From a virus: DNA of 30,515 bases. This document shows positions 1-6,807 of this stretch, one piece after another; positions within the stretch are counted from its first letter, which is position 1; each line of letters opens with the position of its first letter. The notes below the pieces were generated by a model that saw only the letters and a program-made list of their open reading frames with translations, had not been told where the DNA came from and ran no database searches. The stretch covers positions 1 through 30,515 of the IMG/VR virus record IMGVR_UViG_3300028189_000042; one strand, given 5' to 3'. A program made the position numbers and the translations under genes.

Positions 1-438
1 ATTATTGCAAGATACGATCCTGAAACAGAATCCCCAGAAATTAATAGTCGTAAGTATGCTTTTTTTGAGCATATTTTTGATAGGTTTTGTAGAGAAAATA
101 AAATTGATTATAAAAGAATACTGAGAATGAATTTAAACTTCACTTCTCATTTCGATTCTGAATTTTTTGGTCAACCTCACGCAGACCACGATATCCCACA
201 CCAAACGATGGTTATGTACCTTTATGGAAATTCTGGGAATACAGTTTTATTTGATGGAAAATATACTCCTAATAGTGGAGAATTAACTTACACTAAAGAA
301 AACTTAAAAGTGGCAAAAGAAGTTGAACCGGAAGTCGGAAAGGTTATTTCTTTTGATGGGATGACGTTTCATACTATACGACCACCTAAAATTAATACTT
401 CTAGAATTATCTGCGTATTGACATATGAGTTAAAATAA
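1..438 (+). CDS. 2OG-Fe(II) oxygenase, 5'-truncated by the window edge
   Basis: The reading frame is open from the first base (codon 1 at position 1) to a TAA at 436-438, so the true start lies outside the window; the ATG at 127 is internal. The visible 145 residues carry the C-terminal jelly-roll of a 2-oxoglutarate/Fe(II) dioxygenase of the prolyl-hydroxylase type. There is an HxD iron-binding pair in QPHADHD, a strand resembling 'YLYGNSGNTVLFDG', a distal histidine in FDGMTFHTIRPP and an arginine in TSRI suited to bind the 2OG carboxylate. The HAD (not HAG/HxG) motif argues for a hydroxylase rather than a non-haem halogenase. Family members use O2 and 2OG to hydroxylate proteins or small molecules; the substrate here is unknown. 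The gene overlaps the halogenase start by one base (TAATG), suggesting coupled translation. Such oxygenases are common in T4-like marine phages. Confidence 0.82.
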   Translation: MIARYDPETESPEINSRKYAFFEHIFDRFCRENKIDYKRILRMNLNFTSHFDSEFFGQPHADHDIPHQTMVMYLYGNSGNTVLFDGKYTPNSGELTYTKENLKVAKEVEPEVGKVISFDGMTFHTIRPPKINTSRIICVLTYELK

Positions 439-1904
439 TGAAAAATATATTGGTAGTGGGTAGTGGGTCTGCTGGATTAATCGCAGCAACTATCCTAAAG
501 AAAAGGTTAAACGTACAAGTAGACGTATTATCATCTAGTGGTCTAGACATCATTGGTGTCGGTGAAGGATCAACTACTGAGTTCTTTGAATATATGAAAT
601 TCATCGGGATTACCGATAGTGATATAATTAAAAATTGCGGTGCGACTTATAAGTCTGGAATAATGTTTGAGGGTTGGAACGATAAGAAAGATTTTTTACA
701 TACTGCTTCCGTAGATTTTTTTAGCACTTGGGGGCAATATTATCACGCAATGGCAAAGCAAATATCCGACGAATCAGATTTTGTATGCCCTCAACATTTC
801 TATAATAATGCATTAGACGAACAATACGTGTTTGATAATATTCGTAGAGTAAAACATCACCCACAAATAACACAATACCATTTCGATAGTTATAAACTTA
901 ATAAATTTTTAATAGACATATCTAAAGGTATGGGAATTAATTTTATAGATGATAAGATACAAAAAGTTAATCTATCAGATGATGGTAATATAAAAACGTT
1001 AATGGGTGAAGTTGATGAGTACGACTACGATTTTTATATTGACGCAACTGGGTTTAAGAAAATACTAATAGGTGAAATGGGCGCTGAGTGGAAATCGTAT
1101 GGCAAGTATCTTAAAATGAATTCTGCCATAACGTTTGAAACTGAGCAAGAAGATAATTATAATATTTGGACACTATCAAAAGCAATGGATGCTGGGTGGT
1201 TGTTTAGAATACCAGTACAAGGTAGGTATGGTAATGGTTATATCTTTGATGATAATTATATCGATGAAGAGCAAGCAAAGGTAGAAGTTGAAAAATATTT
1301 CGGCAAAGAAATAAAGGTAGGAAAGAAATTCAAATTCGATCCTGGATGTTTAGATAAATCGTGGATAAAAAATTGTTGTGCGATCGGTTTGAGTAGTTCT
1401 TTTATAGAACCCTTAGAAGCGACATCTATTGGGTCTAGCATACAGCAGACATTTATGCTGATGCAGAAATTGCCAAATTATAATGAGGTGGTTATAGAAA
1501 GTTATAATAAGTCTTTTGATTCTTTAATGGAAAACCTAAGAGATTTTGTCGTTATGCATTATGTGACAAATAAAACAAATACTCAATTTTGGAAAGACGT
1601 TTCAAAATTAGAATTACCAAAAACTTTAAAAGATAGGTTAGAATTGTGGAAACATAAAATGCCAGTAAGTGAAGATATGATTGAGGAATCTGATTATACC
1701 CTATTTAAAGAATATCATTATATAATAGTTATGCATGGTTTGGGGTTGTTCGACACGAAATCTATCACTGAAGAATTTAATATGCATTCCGACGAATTGA
1801 AAGAGGATGCTATTAAAGTGGTAGATCGTTTAGTCGAAATGGAAAAGACGACTCACCTAATGAAGCATATTGATGCTATCAATTTAATATCAAATGCGAG
1901 ATGA
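438..1904 (+). CDS. flavin-dependent (tryptophan-type) halogenase
   Basis: The 488-residue product matches the flavin-dependent tryptophan halogenase family (PrnA/RebH-like). Visible signatures are the FAD-binding GSGSAG at residues 8-13, GVGEGST at 40-46, and a lysine (K72, in ATYKSGI) at the place of the catalytic lysine that carries the hypohalous intermediate. A FIEPLEATS segment around 322-330 contains the glutamate (E327) equivalent to PrnA Glu346. The WxWxIP signature is degenerate: residues 253-259 read GWLFRIP, with Phe for the second Trp. Family members use FADH2, O2 and halide to halogenate aromatic substrates, and need a reductase, not visible here. A cyanophage member (VirX1 from Syn10) has been reported to be an iodinating enzyme, so the substrate should not be assumed to be tryptophan. 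It shares TAATG with the oxygenase and ATGA with the downstream methyltransferase; no separate ribosome site is visible. Confidence 0.9.
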   Translation: MKNILVVGSGSAGLIAATILKKRLNVQVDVLSSSGLDIIGVGEGSTTEFFEYMKFIGITDSDIIKNCGATYKSGIMFEGWNDKKDFLHTASVDFFSTWGQYYHAMAKQISDESDFVCPQHFYNNALDEQYVFDNIRRVKHHPQITQYHFDSYKLNKFLIDISKGMGINFIDDKIQKVNLSDDGNIKTLMGEVDEYDYDFYIDATGFKKILIGEMGAEWKSYGKYLKMNSAITFETEQEDNYNIWTLSKAMDAGWLFRIPVQGRYGNGYIFDDNYIDEEQAKVEVEKYFGKEIKVGKKFKFDPGCLDKSWIKNCCAIGLSSSFIEPLEATSIGSSIQQTFMLMQKLPNYNEVVIESYNKSFDSLMENLRDFVVMHYVTNKTNTQFWKDVSKLELPKTLKDRLELWKHKMPVSEDMIEESDYTLFKEYHYIIVMHGLGLFDTKSITEEFNMHSDELKEDAIKVVDRLVEMEKTTHLMKHIDAINLISNAR

Positions 1905-3250
1905 AAATAATAAAACTCGACAAAGAGTTATTTGAATATTATGATAATCATTCAGTTGGCGGAATTCCTTTACTAAACGAAAAAGAATTCAAATACGTTA
2001 CAGACACATACGGTAAAGATCTAGCAAGATCCACGTTAGCAAATTATATTGCTAATTCCGATACGCAATACCCAATAACAGGAACTGACCACGTAGGAAT
2101 GATTAAAACTTTTCATAAGTTGAGGATGTCAGATTATTCTAAAACCTTAACTCCATCCGATGAATTGAATCCTGATGATATAGTAGAAAAGCACGAATAC
2201 AAATATACATTTAAGGACTATGGTTTGGGGTTGATTGATGCCCATTCAATTTTTAATCCTGCTAGTGGGTACTTCATGAACAAAGAAAGAATTGAATGTT
2301 CAGTCCCTACTCGTTTATCGCCTGCCGATATTTGGAGAAGCACTAATCCTAAAGATACTTGGGATTGTTTTGGTGCGTTGTGGCGTGGCGTCAATAAGTG
2401 TCATTATGACGATGATGGTAAAGTAATTAGTGGTGAAATAAATATACAAAGTTATTTGGTTGCCATGAGACTTGGTTCTTATGTAGCAACCCAATTCAAA
2501 CCTAACGTAGCACGTTCAGTATATGAAATGACCAAAGCGGATAAAGTATTAGATACTTCTATGGGTTGGGGAGATAGGATGTGTGGTTTTATGGCATCTA
2601 ATGCTAAAGAGTATATCGGTTGCGATCCTAATCCTAATACATTTAAGATATATAAGACTATGGCAGTTGAGTATTCAAAACTTATTGGTGATAAAATTTT
2701 AGACATTGTTGATGAAGAACATTATTATAAACAGATTGGTACTAAAAAGGTATTAACTTTTTATAGAAGTGGCGCTGAGGATATACCTTGGGAAGATATT
2801 AATGAGATAGATTGTGCCTTTACATCACCACCATACTTTTCTACAGAGTTATACAATGAGGGTGGTGAACATGAAGATGATCAATCATGGTCTAAGTTTA
2901 GTGAATATAATTCTTGGAGAGATAACTTCTATTTACCAGTTTCTAAAAATAGTTTTAATGCCCTAAGTGATAGGGGGTTTTTAATGATTAATATAATGGA
3001 TCCTACTATTAAAGGTGAACGATATTATTCGTGTGACGAATTAGTAGATTCTTTAAAGGATAATTTTATAGGGCAAATTGGCATGAGGATTATGCAAAGA
3101 CCTCACGGTAAAAGTAAATTTACCCCAGAAGAATTAAGAGAATATTTAAAGAAAACCTATATGGAAAATGTATGGGTGTTTAGTAAGGGCAACGGTTTGG
3201 ATCTATTCAGGGATGCCAGAACAAGTACATTAGAAAGTTTTTTTAATTAA
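1901..3250 (+). CDS. SAM-dependent methyltransferase with SPPY motif (probable DNA methylase)
   Basis: The 449-residue protein has an N-terminal region of about 200 residues that I do not recognise, then a class I methyltransferase fold. A SAM-binding motif I lies at 218-225 (DTSMGWGD), an acidic/proline segment CDPNP at 241-245, and the catalytic motif TSPPY at 308-312. SPPY-type motifs are typical of amino-methyltransferases acting on N4-cytosine or N6-adenine in DNA. A C-terminal ENVWVFSKGN strand is also usual for the family. It overlaps the halogenase by four bases (ATGA), the third member of a tightly coupled trio. It could protect phage DNA from restriction or methylate another substrate; no cognate restriction enzyme is present. 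The next element downstream is a promoter, so the transcription unit probably ends near here, though I see no clear terminator hairpin. Confidence 0.8.
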   Translation: MKIIKLDKELFEYYDNHSVGGIPLLNEKEFKYVTDTYGKDLARSTLANYIANSDTQYPITGTDHVGMIKTFHKLRMSDYSKTLTPSDELNPDDIVEKHEYKYTFKDYGLGLIDAHSIFNPASGYFMNKERIECSVPTRLSPADIWRSTNPKDTWDCFGALWRGVNKCHYDDDGKVISGEINIQSYLVAMRLGSYVATQFKPNVARSVYEMTKADKVLDTSMGWGDRMCGFMASNAKEYIGCDPNPNTFKIYKTMAVEYSKLIGDKILDIVDEEHYYKQIGTKKVLTFYRSGAEDIPWEDINEIDCAFTSPPYFSTELYNEGGEHEDDQSWSKFSEYNSWRDNFYLPVSKNSFNALSDRGFLMINIMDPTIKGERYYSCDELVDSLKDNFIGQIGMRIMQRPHGKSKFTPEELREYLKKTYMENVWVFSKGNGLDLFRDARTSTLESFFN

Positions 3251-3253
3251 AAC

Positions 3254-3282
3254 TTTACTTTATGGTATAATTATGGTATAAT
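3254..3282 (+). promoter_or_regulatory. sigma70-type promoter of the gp33-gp59 operon
   Basis: TTTACT at 3254-3259 and TATAAT at 3277-3282 are separated by exactly 17 bases, followed by AAAGG. The -10 lies just after a second, overlapping TATAAT at 3266-3271. A nearly identical element sits before gp32. This fits a host RNA polymerase (early or middle) promoter. Confidence 0.75.
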
Positions 3283-3311: not shown

Positions 3312-3356
3312 ATGTTATTTAAAAATATTAAGAAAGGTGAGCAAAATCGATGCTAG
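3312..3356 (+). CDS. possible 14-residue leader peptide before gp33
   Basis: An ATG at 3312 directly follows a strong Shine-Dalgarno run (AAGGAGAGG, 3301-3309) and opens a 14-codon frame (MLFKNIKKGEQNRC) that ends at TAG 3354-3356, overlapping the gp33 start at 3350. gp33 has its own AAGGTGAG (3334-3341). The peptide may only couple or tune translation of gp33; nothing else supports it as a functional protein. Confidence 0.35.
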   Translation: MLFKNIKKGEQNRC

Positions 3357-3571
3357 AAGTTTTAAATAAAGAAAAGTTTTCTTTGATAGTCGAAAAGATT
3401 GTCATTGAAAAACGTATATTATACATGGATGCAATCTGTTGGTGGTGTGAAGAAAACGAAATGGAAATTGAAATAGCGTCTAAACTAATTAGTCCTCTTA
3501 TCAAAGCAAAGATAGAAGTTGAAGCGCAAGCATTAAACTTCCTACCTAAGTGTGCTAAGTTGCCTATATGA
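3350..3571 (+). CDS. 33: late-promoter transcription accessory protein gp33
   Basis: The 73-residue protein aligns by eye with the central and C-terminal part of T4 gp33. Shared features are a hydrophobic start with an IVEK segment, then Y-x-(D/E)-A followed by an EEN turn, and a helix with K-I-x-x-E-A leading to N-x-L. In T4, gp33 bridges RNA polymerase, the sigma-like gp55 and the sliding clamp to activate late promoters. It is shorter than T4 gp33 (112 residues), lacking the N-terminal extension and the clamp-binding DFLL tail, so clamp contact must use another sequence or protein. The position immediately before gp59 and gp32 is the same as in T4. It has its own AAGGTGAG ribosome site and overlaps gp59 by ATGA. 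The presence of TATAAATA late promoters in this window is consistent with this function. Confidence 0.8.
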   Translation: MLEVLNKEKFSLIVEKIVIEKRILYMDAICWWCEENEMEIEIASKLISPLIKAKIEVEAQALNFLPKCAKLPI

Positions 3572-4173
3572 ATTTGACCATGGATGGGTTTGATACATAT
3601 AAAACATACTTGGCACTCAAGCAACACTTCAAAAGTAAAAGTTATGACTTCTTTAAGTATAACGGCAAAGTAAGAGCAAGTGCTACATCATATGAAACTC
3701 GTAAAGACAAATACTTTTTCGAGAAAGCAAGTAAGAAGTTTAAGCATGAGGAATTCATTGATTATATCGTTGCTAACATTTCCCGTAATAGTGACTCGTG
3801 GATAGGAAATTTATTACAAGAAAACAACCAAACCAATTATAAGAAATGGCAAAAGGTAACTGAGTCACTGACTTATACGTTCAAAGAAGATATGAATGTG
3901 ATATGCGATTATGAAGAAGATTTCAATAAGGTGTTTGAGATGAAAGACAACAAACATCCACTTCTGTTTAGGTTATACTCAATGAATAAAATATCATTAG
4001 AAACTACTGTGATACTTGATGACATCTTAAACTATAAATCTCTTTGGTATAAATACAACGATACAATTTTAAATGATTTTGTGTTTAAGATGGAGAAGTA
4101 CAAACCCTTTCTTCATAATAGGACACAAGTGAATAAGACAAAATACAAAAATATAATAAAAGAATTCTACTAA
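3568..4173 (+). CDS. 59: loader of replicative helicase, gp59
   Basis: The 201-residue product is close to T4 gp59 (217 residues). Recognisable blocks are TYKTYLALKQH near residues 10-20, the basic/aromatic RKDKYFFEK around 45-53, NSDSWIGN near 75-82 and a C-terminal set of aromatic-rich helices. In T4 this protein binds forked DNA and gp32, and loads the gp41 helicase at replication and recombination intermediates. The start overlaps the gp33 stop (ATGA), so the two are translationally coupled; a second Met at residue 5 is a less likely start. Its stop is followed within four bases by the gp32 promoter. The identification is firm from both sequence and the 33-59-32 gene order. Confidence 0.92.
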   Translation: MNLTMDGFDTYKTYLALKQHFKSKSYDFFKYNGKVRASATSYETRKDKYFFEKASKKFKHEEFIDYIVANISRNSDSWIGNLLQENNQTNYKKWQKVTESLTYTFKEDMNVICDYEEDFNKVFEMKDNKHPLLFRLYSMNKISLETTVILDDILNYKSLWYKYNDTILNDFVFKMEKYKPFLHNRTQVNKTKYKNIIKEFY

Positions 4174-4176
4174 AAC

Positions 4177-4205
4177 TTTACTTTTGGGTCGAGTTATAGT
4201 ATAAT
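4177..4205 (+). promoter_or_regulatory. sigma70-type promoter of gp32
   Basis: TTTACT at 4177-4182 and TATAAT at 4200-4205 are again 17 bases apart, preceded by AAAAC and followed by AAAGA. This is the same architecture as the element at 3254-3282. The expected leader (from about 4212 to 4264) is nearly all A and T, apart from the GGAG ribosome site at 4254-4257. Such a leader would suit cooperative binding of gp32 to its own mRNA, as in T4, but no pseudoknot is evident by eye. Confidence 0.75.
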
Positions 4206-4264: not shown

Positions 4265-5149
4265 ATGGGTGATTTCGCCAGTTTAAAAAAATCGAGAGGT
4301 TCCTCTCTAAGTAAGTTAATCAAAGAGTCTGAAAAATTACAGACAAAATCATTTCAACCAGACCAACGTTTGTGGAAACCTGACGTTGACAAATCAGGTA
4401 ATGGTTATGCTGTTATTCGTTTTATGCCAGAACCAAGTGGTGAGGATTTGCCATACGTTCGCATGTTCGACCACGGTTTTCAAGGTCCAGGTGGTTGGTA
4501 TATCGAAAACTCTTTAACATCAATCGGTGAAAAAGATCCACTAGGAGAGTATAATACTACCCTATGGAACAATGGCACTGATGCTGGTAAAGACCAAGCA
4601 CGTAAGCAAAAACGTAGATTAAAATACTTTGCTAACATCTATGTGGTTAAAGATCCAGGCAATCCTGCTAACGAAGGAAAAGTTTTCTTATATCAATTTG
4701 GTAAGAAGATCTTTGATAAGTTAAATGAAGCAATGAATCCGGAGTTTGAAGATGAAAATCCAGTAAACCCTTTTGATTTTTGGGATGGTGCTGACTTTAA
4801 ACTGAAGATTAGAAACCTTGATGGGTTTAGAAACTACGACAAGTCTGACTTTGATGCACCAAGTGCGTTACTTGATGGTGACGATGCTGGATTAGAAAAG
4901 GTATATGAATCTCTTTACTCTTTACAAGAGTTCTTAGATCCTAAAAACTTTAAATCTTATGCTGAGTTAGAAACGAAGTTAAACCGAGTTCTTGGAGTAA
5001 CAGGTATTGCACCTAAAACTACTGCTGAAGATTTCGATAAAGCAGAAGATACTACTGAATCTCCTTTCGTTGAAGAAAAGAAAGAACCAGTAATGGCGAC
5101 GGATGATGAGGATTTATCGTTTTTCGATAAACTTGCAAACGAGGACTAA
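4265..5149 (+). CDS. 32: single-stranded DNA-binding protein gp32
   Basis: The 294-residue protein matches T4 gp32. It has a basic N-terminal cooperativity segment (LKKSRGSSLSKL near 7-18), a central OB-fold core with MFDHGF and WYIENS, a lysine/arginine block (ARKQKRRLKYFANIYVV) and a long acidic tail ending DDEDLSFFDKLANED. In T4 it coats single-stranded DNA and its acidic tail recruits gp59 and other replication proteins. The protein has no cysteine at all: the zinc-binding cysteines of T4 gp32 are absent, although the histidine region (DHGF) remains. The zinc subdomain must therefore fold without metal, as seems usual in marine T4-like phages. It has its own promoter and a GGAG site; a rho-independent terminator follows. 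Confidence 0.93.
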   Translation: MGDFASLKKSRGSSLSKLIKESEKLQTKSFQPDQRLWKPDVDKSGNGYAVIRFMPEPSGEDLPYVRMFDHGFQGPGGWYIENSLTSIGEKDPLGEYNTTLWNNGTDAGKDQARKQKRRLKYFANIYVVKDPGNPANEGKVFLYQFGKKIFDKLNEAMNPEFEDENPVNPFDFWDGADFKLKIRNLDGFRNYDKSDFDAPSALLDGDDAGLEKVYESLYSLQEFLDPKNFKSYAELETKLNRVLGVTGIAPKTTAEDFDKAEDTTESPFVEEKKEPVMATDDEDLSFFDKLANED

Positions 5150-5209: not shown

Positions 5210-5485
5210 ATGGATTTAAAACCATTACACGATAGAGTTATCGTTAAAGTAGAAGAAACTGAAAACACAACTGAGTCTGGGTTAATCTTAACTCAAACTG
5301 CTCAAGACAAATCTAATAGAGGTATGGTAGTTGCTGTTGGTCCAGGTAAGTATGAGTATGGTGCTTGGATTGAGATGACTGTTAAAGCAGGTGATACCGT
5401 TATGTTTGAATTAGCACAAGCAACAAATATGGAATCTGACTATATGGTTATGCGTGAGTCAAACATCATTGCTGTTATTGGTTAA
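5210..5485 (+). CDS. groES: co-chaperonin GroES (Cpn10)
   Basis: The 91-residue protein begins MDLKPLHDRVIVKVEE, the canonical first strand of GroES. It has the mobile loop (ESGLILTQ, residues 22-29) with a hydrophobic triplet suited to contact GroEL, then RGMVVAVGPGKY, AGDTVMFE and a closing strand ESNIIAVIG. The start at 5210 is chosen because AGGAGA (5198-5203) stands 6 bases upstream; the ATG at 5180 would place the terminator inside the gene. GroES caps host GroEL; T4 encodes a functional replacement, gp31, to fold its major capsid protein. This phage seems to carry a true GroES homologue instead, but whether capsid folding is its job is inference. It lies between the replication module and the tail operon, and its stop overlaps the convergent stop of the ATP-grasp gene (TTAA, 5482-5485). 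Confidence 0.93.
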   Translation: MDLKPLHDRVIVKVEETENTTESGLILTQTAQDKSNRGMVVAVGPGKYEYGAWIEMTVKAGDTVMFELAQATNMESDYMVMRESNIIAVIG

Positions 5486-6807
5486 GACAAAGTATATTTC
5501 AACTCTGGGTCAATAATAAGACTGTTGTTAATCATAAATTCTTTATTACAAAGGACATCAGTCTTTTTAATCCTATTGTCTAAGGTGAATTGAATATTCT
5601 TATGGATAATATCATTAAACTTAACATCTAAAAGAATAACAGGTCGTTCTTCTGAATGACTGTTACCACCAGTTATGATACTCTTCATTTCAACCACTGG
5701 TGCTCTATAAATTTTACCTCTAAACTTCCACGTAACTTTTTTATTATCATCAGATAATTTAATATCATCACCGTGAATAACAGATGCTTGGGAACTATTA
5801 CCAGTGTCCATTTTACTATCTAATTTAGCACCAAATAGTGGGAAGAAGAAATGTTCCTTAACACCAATAGTAATTTTAGGTAAATTCCAATTCTCTTTAT
5901 TAGAGATGTATTCAACCACCACCTTATTAAGATTGGTACCAGTTGTACCTTCAATTCCTTCTGTGCCTGCAGATGAGTTTACTTCGATAACAAGAGGATT
6001 ACCATTGTTAGGAATAAAATCAACACCAGTCCAATATCCACCCACTGCCTTTGCTGCATTGAGAACCGTTTCTTTTTCTTTCTCTGATAACTCATATTTC
6101 TCTGTTGTCGCACCTTGGGAATAATTAGAACGGAAGTCTTTCTTAGGAACGTTCCGTCTCATAGTTCCGATAATCTCATCATTAAGAACCATAACTCTTA
6201 CATCAAATTCAGACTTAATAAATTCTTGTAATAACAAGTCTACATTCTCATCCATTTTATATAGTAATTGAACCAATGCTTCTAATGATTGTAAAGACTC
6301 AACCATCATTACACCCACACCTTGAGTACCACGAAGTGTTTTTAAGATGACTGGGAATTTAGTTTCTAGTTTTTCAAATGCCTTTTCTGCATAGTTTATT
6401 TCTTTATCCTTACCAACAGATATAAGAACAGTTTTGGGTTGTTCAATCTCTGCGGATTTTAAGGTTAAGAATGTTCTATACTTATCAGTACATATCTCAG
6501 TAGTTTCCCTTGAGTTTACACATTGAATGCTTAATTGCTCAATTTGAGATAATAAGTCTAAGTATGAATCTTTAGATGTTATACTTGCACGTGAGGTGAC
6601 GATTGTATCAGACTTATGTATCTTAAAACCTTTATCATCATCAATGTTATGTATTAAATCTACACCATCTTTCTTAGATACATAAGCACCCTCAAGATTT
6701 ACAATATAAGTTTTACCACCCAATTTGGTATTTTCTTTTTCAAGTCGTTCAACGGTATTAAAATTTTTACCATTATCGAGTTCTTTTGTTAGTATTACTA
6801 AATTCAT
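5482..6807 (-). CDS. RimK-like ATP-grasp ligase fused to retropepsin-like (PF05618-type) protease
   Basis: The 441-residue protein has two parts. Residues about 1-305 look like a RimK/glutathione-synthetase ATP-grasp ligase: K156 with glycine-rich LRGTQGVGV (158-166), hinge QEFI (194-197), DVRVMV (202-207), the basic MRRNVPKKDFRSN stretch (216-228), and metal ligands D263, E275 and N277 in GVDFIP...VIEVNSS. Residues about 318-441 match the retropepsin-like family often called 'ATP-dependent zinc protease' (PF05618), with the aspartyl-protease triad D334-T335-G336 followed by S-x-x-I-H-G. RimK-type enzymes add glutamate or other amino acids to protein C-termini or side chains; the peptidase partner is usually a separate neighbouring gene. 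This gene is the last of the minus-strand tail operon, only 2 bases after the tape measure stop, so a virion protein is a plausible substrate (inference). No Shine-Dalgarno is visible. Confidence 0.85.
   Translation of the reverse strand: MNLVILTKELDNGKNFNTVERLEKENTKLGGKTYIVNLEGAYVSKKDGVDLIHNIDDDKGFKIHKSDTIVTSRASITSKDSYLDLLSQIEQLSIQCVNSRETTEICTDKYRTFLTLKSAEIEQPKTVLISVGKDKEINYAEKAFEKLETKFPVILKTLRGTQGVGVMMVESLQSLEALVQLLYKMDENVDLLLQEFIKSEFDVRVMVLNDEIIGTMRRNVPKKDFRSNYSQGATTEKYELSEKEKETVLNAAKAVGGYWTGVDFIPNNGNPLVIEVNSSAGTEGIEGTTGTNLNKVVVEYISNKENWNLPKITIGVKEHFFFPLFGAKLDSKMDTGNSSQASVIHGDDIKLSDDNKKVTWKFRGKIYRAPVVEMKSIITGGNSHSEERPVILLDVKFNDIIHKNIQFTLDNRIKKTDVLCNKEFMINNSLIIDPELKYTLS

Follow-up and report, generated by a model that had tools for sequence, protein, structure and literature searches.

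The left end of this T4-like marine phage fragment is probably an exchangeable cargo site beside g33-g59-g32, holding an oxygenase and a halogenase as a tailoring pair together with an unrelated methyltransferase. The window, i.e. the whole stretch of DNA that was analysed, is a linear fragment of 30,515 bases and makes up the entire virus record. Its visible cargo, which begins at the contig edge, is three enzyme genes that look intact apart from the first, cut short solely by the contig end. Relatives carry the halogenase ortholog, the oxygenase family and the methyltransferase apart from one another, at this or other positions.

The gene content is that of a T4-like phage, with a g33-like late regulator, gp59, gp32, baseplate hub and wedge, tail tube, tail-fibre and GroES-like genes, and no tRNA genes were found in the 30.5-kb window. 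Over the first 8 kb most DNA matches come from marine cyanophages (60-80% identity), the best rows covering gp32. The features at this end are:

1..438, + strand, 2OG-Fe(II) oxygenase (ORF1), 5' end cut by the contig start, visible part 145 aa
436..440, + strand, TAATG stop/start overlap from oxygenase to halogenase, stop TAA 436-438, start ATG 438-440, 1 bp
438..1904, + strand, flavin-dependent (tryptophan-type) halogenase (ORF2), 488 aa
1901..1904, + strand, ATGA start/stop overlap from halogenase to methyltransferase, start ATG 1901-1903, stop TGA 1902-1904, 4 bp
1901..3250, + strand, SAM-dependent methyltransferase (ORF3), 449 aa, a helical N-terminal part and a Rossmann methyltransferase domain
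3254..3282, + strand, promoter-like TTTACT-N17-TATAAT with TG, just past the methyltransferase stop, a lead only
3350..3571, + strand, g33-like late promoter transcriptional regulator, bordering the cargo site
3568..4173, + strand, gp59 helicase loader, the anchor for collecting close relatives
4265..5149, + strand, gp32 single-strand DNA binding protein

A preliminary description of this DNA had reported three tailoring enzymes coupled by TAATG and ATGA overlaps. The three reading frames are consecutive on the plus strand, and the junction letters are exactly as it gave them. Its three enzyme classes also agree with Pfam, PHROG and the motifs. A list of 30 window genes compiled by hand gives 27 same-strand neighbour pairs; 12 of these overlap, nine by 1 bp and three by 4 bp, so overlap is background in this genome. 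Across its viral loci, the methyltransferase family has 4-bp overlaps with several different partners. The overlaps within the trio suggest co-translation, carry little information on a common function, and would reflect tight packing rather than a common pathway. The promoter-like hexamers TTTACT and TATAAT occur again at 4177-4205, ahead of gp32; the total of such sites shows no excess over shuffles.

ORF2 matches the Pfam family Trp_halogenase (PF04820) with an E-value of 3e-92. The GxGxxG motif is present as GSGSAG at residues 8-13. The catalytic lysine is K72, equivalent to K79 of PrnA, in a column that is lysine in 140 of 141 aligned halogenases, and the active-site glutamate is E327, in EPLE, in a column that is glutamate in 136 of the 141. 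The WxWxIP region reads GWLFRIP (253-259), with the first tryptophan, the isoleucine and the proline kept and the second tryptophan changed to phenylalanine; this position holds Phe in 46 of the 141 halogenase relatives and Trp in 90. Flavin halogenases perform electrophilic halogenation, and the ORF2 product would use FADH2, O2 and a halide to halogenate an electron-rich aromatic ring.

Phage halogenases are already known. VirX1 of cyanophage Syn10 (PDB 6qgm) is a viral member of the same Trp_halogenase family and matches residues 2-471 of ORF2 with an E-value of 2.8e-43. Its catalytic lysine and glutamate are kept in ORF2, but ORF2 shares no more than about 26% identity with the Syn10/syn9 halogenase genes. 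According to a review, VirX1 iodinates many substrates. Cyanophage halogenases are reported as auxiliary genes in PMC10452541, PMC3037559 and PMC2984593.

For the truncated ORF1, the 2OG-FeII Pfam matches are below threshold (18.8 and 19 bits, cut-off 27), and PHROG 274 is matched at 8e-18. The iron ligands are H60, D62 and H124 and the 2OG-binding residue is R135, numbered on the visible 145 residues; this HxD...H...R set is invariant in 32 of 32 aligned sequences, the window included. A full-length ortholog, 60% identical, was found in a related contig (L187, 997-1584). Judged by its length of 195 aa, ORF1 lacks about 50 residues at the N-terminus. A search of PDB sequences with the oxygenase gave chance-level matches or none. 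The predicted structure of the ortholog (pLDDT 85.9) has a double-stranded beta-helix fold matching PiuC, PHD2, P4H and AlkB at Z 13-15. The closest folds are a Shewanella putative oxygenase and PiuC (Z 15.4-14.8), followed by the prolyl hydroxylases (Z 14.2) and AlkB (Z 13.5); all these rows span only about 2 Z. Enzymes of this family carry out Fe(IV)-oxo hydroxylation, and the ORF1 product would hydroxylate an unactivated C-H.

This order of folds bears on the idea that the targets of the oxygenase and the halogenase are protein side chains, in a phage adhesin or on the host surface, and that the methyltransferase is unrelated. The ortholog model is nearest to the Shewanella oxygenase, PiuC and the prolyl hydroxylases, with AlkB lower, and of seven annotated isolate stretches five have a tail-fibre or adhesin gene at most 7 kb from the halogenase, a raw count without a control. 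However, the window genes with tail-fibre matches start about 24 kb away, and a spread of about 2 Z separates the folds little. We consider protein or virion modification unlikely. A broader form of it would be that marine phages employ mix-and-match flavin halogenases and 2OG hydroxylases on side chains of their adhesins or of host surface proteins, the window pair being a minimal, freely exchanged version; this we hold to be quite improbable. If true, the side-chain reading would be the first case of virus-encoded protein halogenation.

ORF3 matches N6_N4_Mtase (PF01555) with an E-value of 3e-7 and 31.2 bits, above the cut-off of 26.7, and like that family it has SPPY. Motif I, DTSMGWGDR (218-226), is N-terminal to motif IV, TSPPYF (308-313), and motif I and SPPY are invariant or nearly so in 24 aligned sequences. 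When the AlphaFold model (pLDDT 83.6) was searched against a viral library, the best full-length structural neighbours were an unnamed protein and pithovirus proteins that carry the label of cytosine-N4 or type I DNA methyltransferases. ORF3 differs from the pithovirus proteins with the cytosine-N4-specific label in having its own N-terminal part, and is less than 20% identical to them. The PDB fold matches are generic Rossmann methyltransferases, RNA enzymes among them, and the PDB sequence search, with chance-level matches or none, returned no close solved structure. As a guide to the substrate the fold search was set aside, the many unrelated Rossmann matches (O-methyltransferases at Z about 13, Trm11/TrmN at 12.4-12.8) leaving it unfixed. 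DNA is the likely substrate, with RNA methyltransferases also among the fold matches.

Of 83 mapped loci of the methyltransferase family, 35 have the gp43 DNA polymerase immediately upstream; further neighbours are UvsX, an SbcC/gp46-like gene and a second methyltransferase. Methyltransferases move a methyl group from SAM. ORF3 would be a nucleic-acid amino-methyltransferase separate from the other two enzymes, probably acting on N4 of cytosine or N6 of adenine in DNA and possibly serving restriction evasion.

The overlap-coupled trio had been read as a single pathway, with co-occurrence across relatives set beforehand as the test. To survey the loci, alignment-based profiles were used, as a single-sequence halogenase scan of viral contigs gave no matches. 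The methyltransferase is found at 0 of the best 79 halogenase loci, and the halogenase at 0 of the best 80 methyltransferase loci, within the flanks covered; most contigs are fragments, and the median flanks are 7.1/5.6 kb for the halogenase loci and 3.2/3.3 kb for the methyltransferase loci. A search anchored on gp59 returned 80 viral loci, of which seven have a halogenase (tblastn with the window protein), none the methyltransferase and none the two together, in the stretches covered. Because these flanks are short, records were also searched whole. The methyltransferase was then present in 1 of 26 (G021), and of 16 methyltransferase records one (G035) had a halogenase, pairs that the flanks had been too short to show. 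In G021 8.1 kb lies between the methyltransferase (58%) and the halogenase (59%), and this 14.2-kb record gave no 2OG match. In G035 the distance is about 12.7 kb, and the halogenase there is distant (33%). Among isolates, no organism group in the tallies is common to the phage records that match the halogenase (84) and those that match the methyltransferase (21). The literature searches listed no paper with the oxygenase-halogenase-methyltransferase trio as the subject of its title or abstract opening. Co-occurrence across relatives is largely absent, seen in G021 and G035 and non-adjacent in both, and the trio does not form a conserved unit; the single pathway was not borne out. As both of these records do carry the two genes, a loose functional link between methyltransferase and halogenase is possible, which argues against complete independence.

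The closest relatives show the same separation. We collected 20 virus records with a gp59 71-90% identical and searched them whole. The halogenase is present in five, the ORF1 2OG family in six and both in none; several of the 20 are near-duplicate contigs, so the counts are not independent, and zero joint occurrence given five and six of 20 is not improbable by itself. The methyltransferase is present in one, G021, which is among the five with the halogenase. In the window the oxygenase, the halogenase and the methyltransferase are all 5' of g33. In relatives a halogenase ortholog (59%) is found between g33 and gp59 (L177, L179, L190), an ORF1 ortholog (60%) is 5' of g33 (L186, L187), and a different 2OG gene is between g33 and gp59 (L172, L173, L180). 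One further contig (L176, halogenase 57%) begins inside the halogenase, with gp59 alone visible downstream. These shifting positions around g33 and gp59 form the pattern of an exchangeable cargo site, and since relatives carry the genes apart or alone, they are better described as separately exchanged cargo than as a three-step pathway. The sister phages with the halogenase alone or the oxygenase alone at the same site are a natural experiment.

The lack of co-travel also weighs on hypermodification of DNA bases, in which the methyltransferase, the oxygenase and the halogenase would act in turn on phage DNA. The methyltransferase is of the nucleic-acid amino type, the genes sit beside g33, gp59 and gp32, and there are AlkB rows among the fold matches of the oxygenase. 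Against this, the three genes do not move as a set, PiuC/P4H-type enzymes match the 2OG fold slightly better, and we know of no halogenated base in phage DNA. We regard this explanation as highly improbable.

Under the exchangeable-site reading, the left end of the fragment would be an accessory-gene site adjoining g33-g59-g32, where the oxygenase and the halogenase form part of an oxidative tailoring repertoire that marine phages appear to assemble and swap. The methyltransferase is best regarded as a nucleic-acid enzyme apart from these two, which should be seen as exchangeable tailoring members. The two may have a common target class, either a host metabolite or a peptide or protein side chain. 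The comparison drops the methyltransferase as a misleading clue and keeps the statistically supported company of halogenase and 2OG genes in marine viruses.

To quantify this company, 132 halogenase genes were clustered at 70% identity, giving 95 clusters, and 186 gene families from the same loci were used as controls, in preference to a random-gene control that took one gene per locus although some loci have several halogenases. In a separate count by locus, 198 of 258 phmmer-called 2OG members were retained, the others lacking H.[DE]...H; its upstream/downstream split (34 against 7) was set aside as biased by tie-breaking. One 2OG seed without the iron motif (L009, 4376-4690) was excluded. 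A 2OG gene lies within three genes of 73 of the 95 halogenase clusters, compared with 69 of the 186 control families (Fisher p about 2e-10). It is immediately adjacent on the same strand in 38 of the 95 clusters, compared with 28 of the 186 controls (Fisher p about 6e-6). Oxygenases and halogenases do associate as gene classes in marine viruses. Other recurrent halogenase partners are a carbamoyltransferase, DUF6445, a HAD phosphatase and a gp9/10-like baseplate gene. Single loci have up to five halogenases, and 26 loci have more than one; a halogenase target, if found, would help explain such close-set genes in some marine viruses.

This association, together with the adjacency and overlap of the genes, is what speaks for one biosynthetic pathway, in which the oxygenase, the halogenase and the methyltransferase act successively on one small molecule. 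Carbamoyltransferase, HAD phosphatase and 2OG genes cluster around halogenases, and PMC7824862 predicts such a pathway for a 10-gene cyanophage cluster with a halogenase, 2OG enzymes, carbamoyltransferases and a HemK-like methylase. However, the methyltransferase is missing from the best 79 halogenase loci, within the flanks covered, and non-adjacent in the one close record that has it, orthologs of the oxygenase and the halogenase are found apart in close relatives, and ORF3 matches N6_N4_Mtase with SPPY instead of an O- or C-methyltransferase family. A common pathway for all three enzymes is in our view rather improbable.

Cyanophage clusters of halogenase and 2OG genes are already published (PMC7824862), and this jumbo-phage study predicted that they are secondary-metabolite or capsule-decoration systems. 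Clusters of the make-up given there are present in many of the viral contigs analysed here. As in the window, the halogenase of the halogenase/2OGFeDO/carbamoyltransferase cluster in PMC7824862 stands beside 2OG oxygenases in marine T4-like phages. The window differs in showing one 2OG gene and one halogenase, whereas the cluster also has a carbamoyltransferase and its methylase is called HemK-like, unlike ORF3. No carbamoyltransferase was found among the window ORFs scanned, a set cut off on its 5' side by the contig edge at position 1.

Bacterial relatives of the halogenase were also examined, at 80 loci. The phage partner families are rare there, with DUF6445 at 7 of 80 and the others at 0 to 2. 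A Shewanella locus (L277) has the order TonB receptor, halogenase, SapC, Cupin_8, halogenase, DUF6445. Such cellular clusters have halogenases of the same family, more distant from that of the window (27-45% among the loci returned), but they are chromosomal and have a TonB receptor and SapC, neither of which was seen in the window. DUF6445 is common to the cellular and the phage clusters.

In PHROG 274, as in many cyanophage records, the family of the truncated gene at the start of the window is named DNA endonuclease V, or denV. The members considered here are window 1-438 and those in L004, L006 and L011, three phage loci. The iron motif of 2-oxoglutarate-Fe(II) (2OG) oxygenases is invariant among the members, and the predicted model of one PHROG 274-family protein has a 2OG oxygenase fold. 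Judging from motif and model, the denV name looks wrong for these members.

Two other families close to phage halogenases, PHROG 2954 (labelled ferrochelatase) and PHROG 1644 (labelled minor coat protein, DUF6445), may be additional 2OG oxygenases, because an HxD...H pattern can be seen in them by eye. Genes near phage halogenases where this pattern was noted by eye:

L005, 1031-1672
L013, 7234-7878
L019, 3598-4347

Five viral contigs (L016, L017, L020, L024, L036) carry four or five halogenase genes each, interspersed with many 2OG genes within about 17 kb. Several loci within L019-L043 repeat one gene order: carbamoyltransferase, 2OG, DUF6445, 2OG, halogenase, a 288-aa protein, HAD phosphatase, a small protein and a gp9/10-like baseplate gene. 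By eye, the 288-aa protein looks SGNH-hydrolase-like.

The contig L252, 13.4 kb long and binned with a bacterial genome (record title Verrucomicrobia bacterium TMED56), also has a 2OG/halogenase cluster of phage type. Its halogenase identity, 45%, is the top value among the loci listed in the scan of bacterial genomes. L252 is probably a virus contig wrongly placed in the bin.

Further features of the window are:

5482-6807, minus strand, fusion of RimK-like ATP-grasp and ATP-dependent zinc protease domains (domain matches)
3254-3282, promoter-like TTTACT-N17-TATAAT, 5' of g33
4177-4205, promoter-like site with identical hexamers and spacing, 5' of gp32

The zinc protease match is weak; by its domains the fusion is a predicted protein-tailoring enzyme, unusual in a phage.
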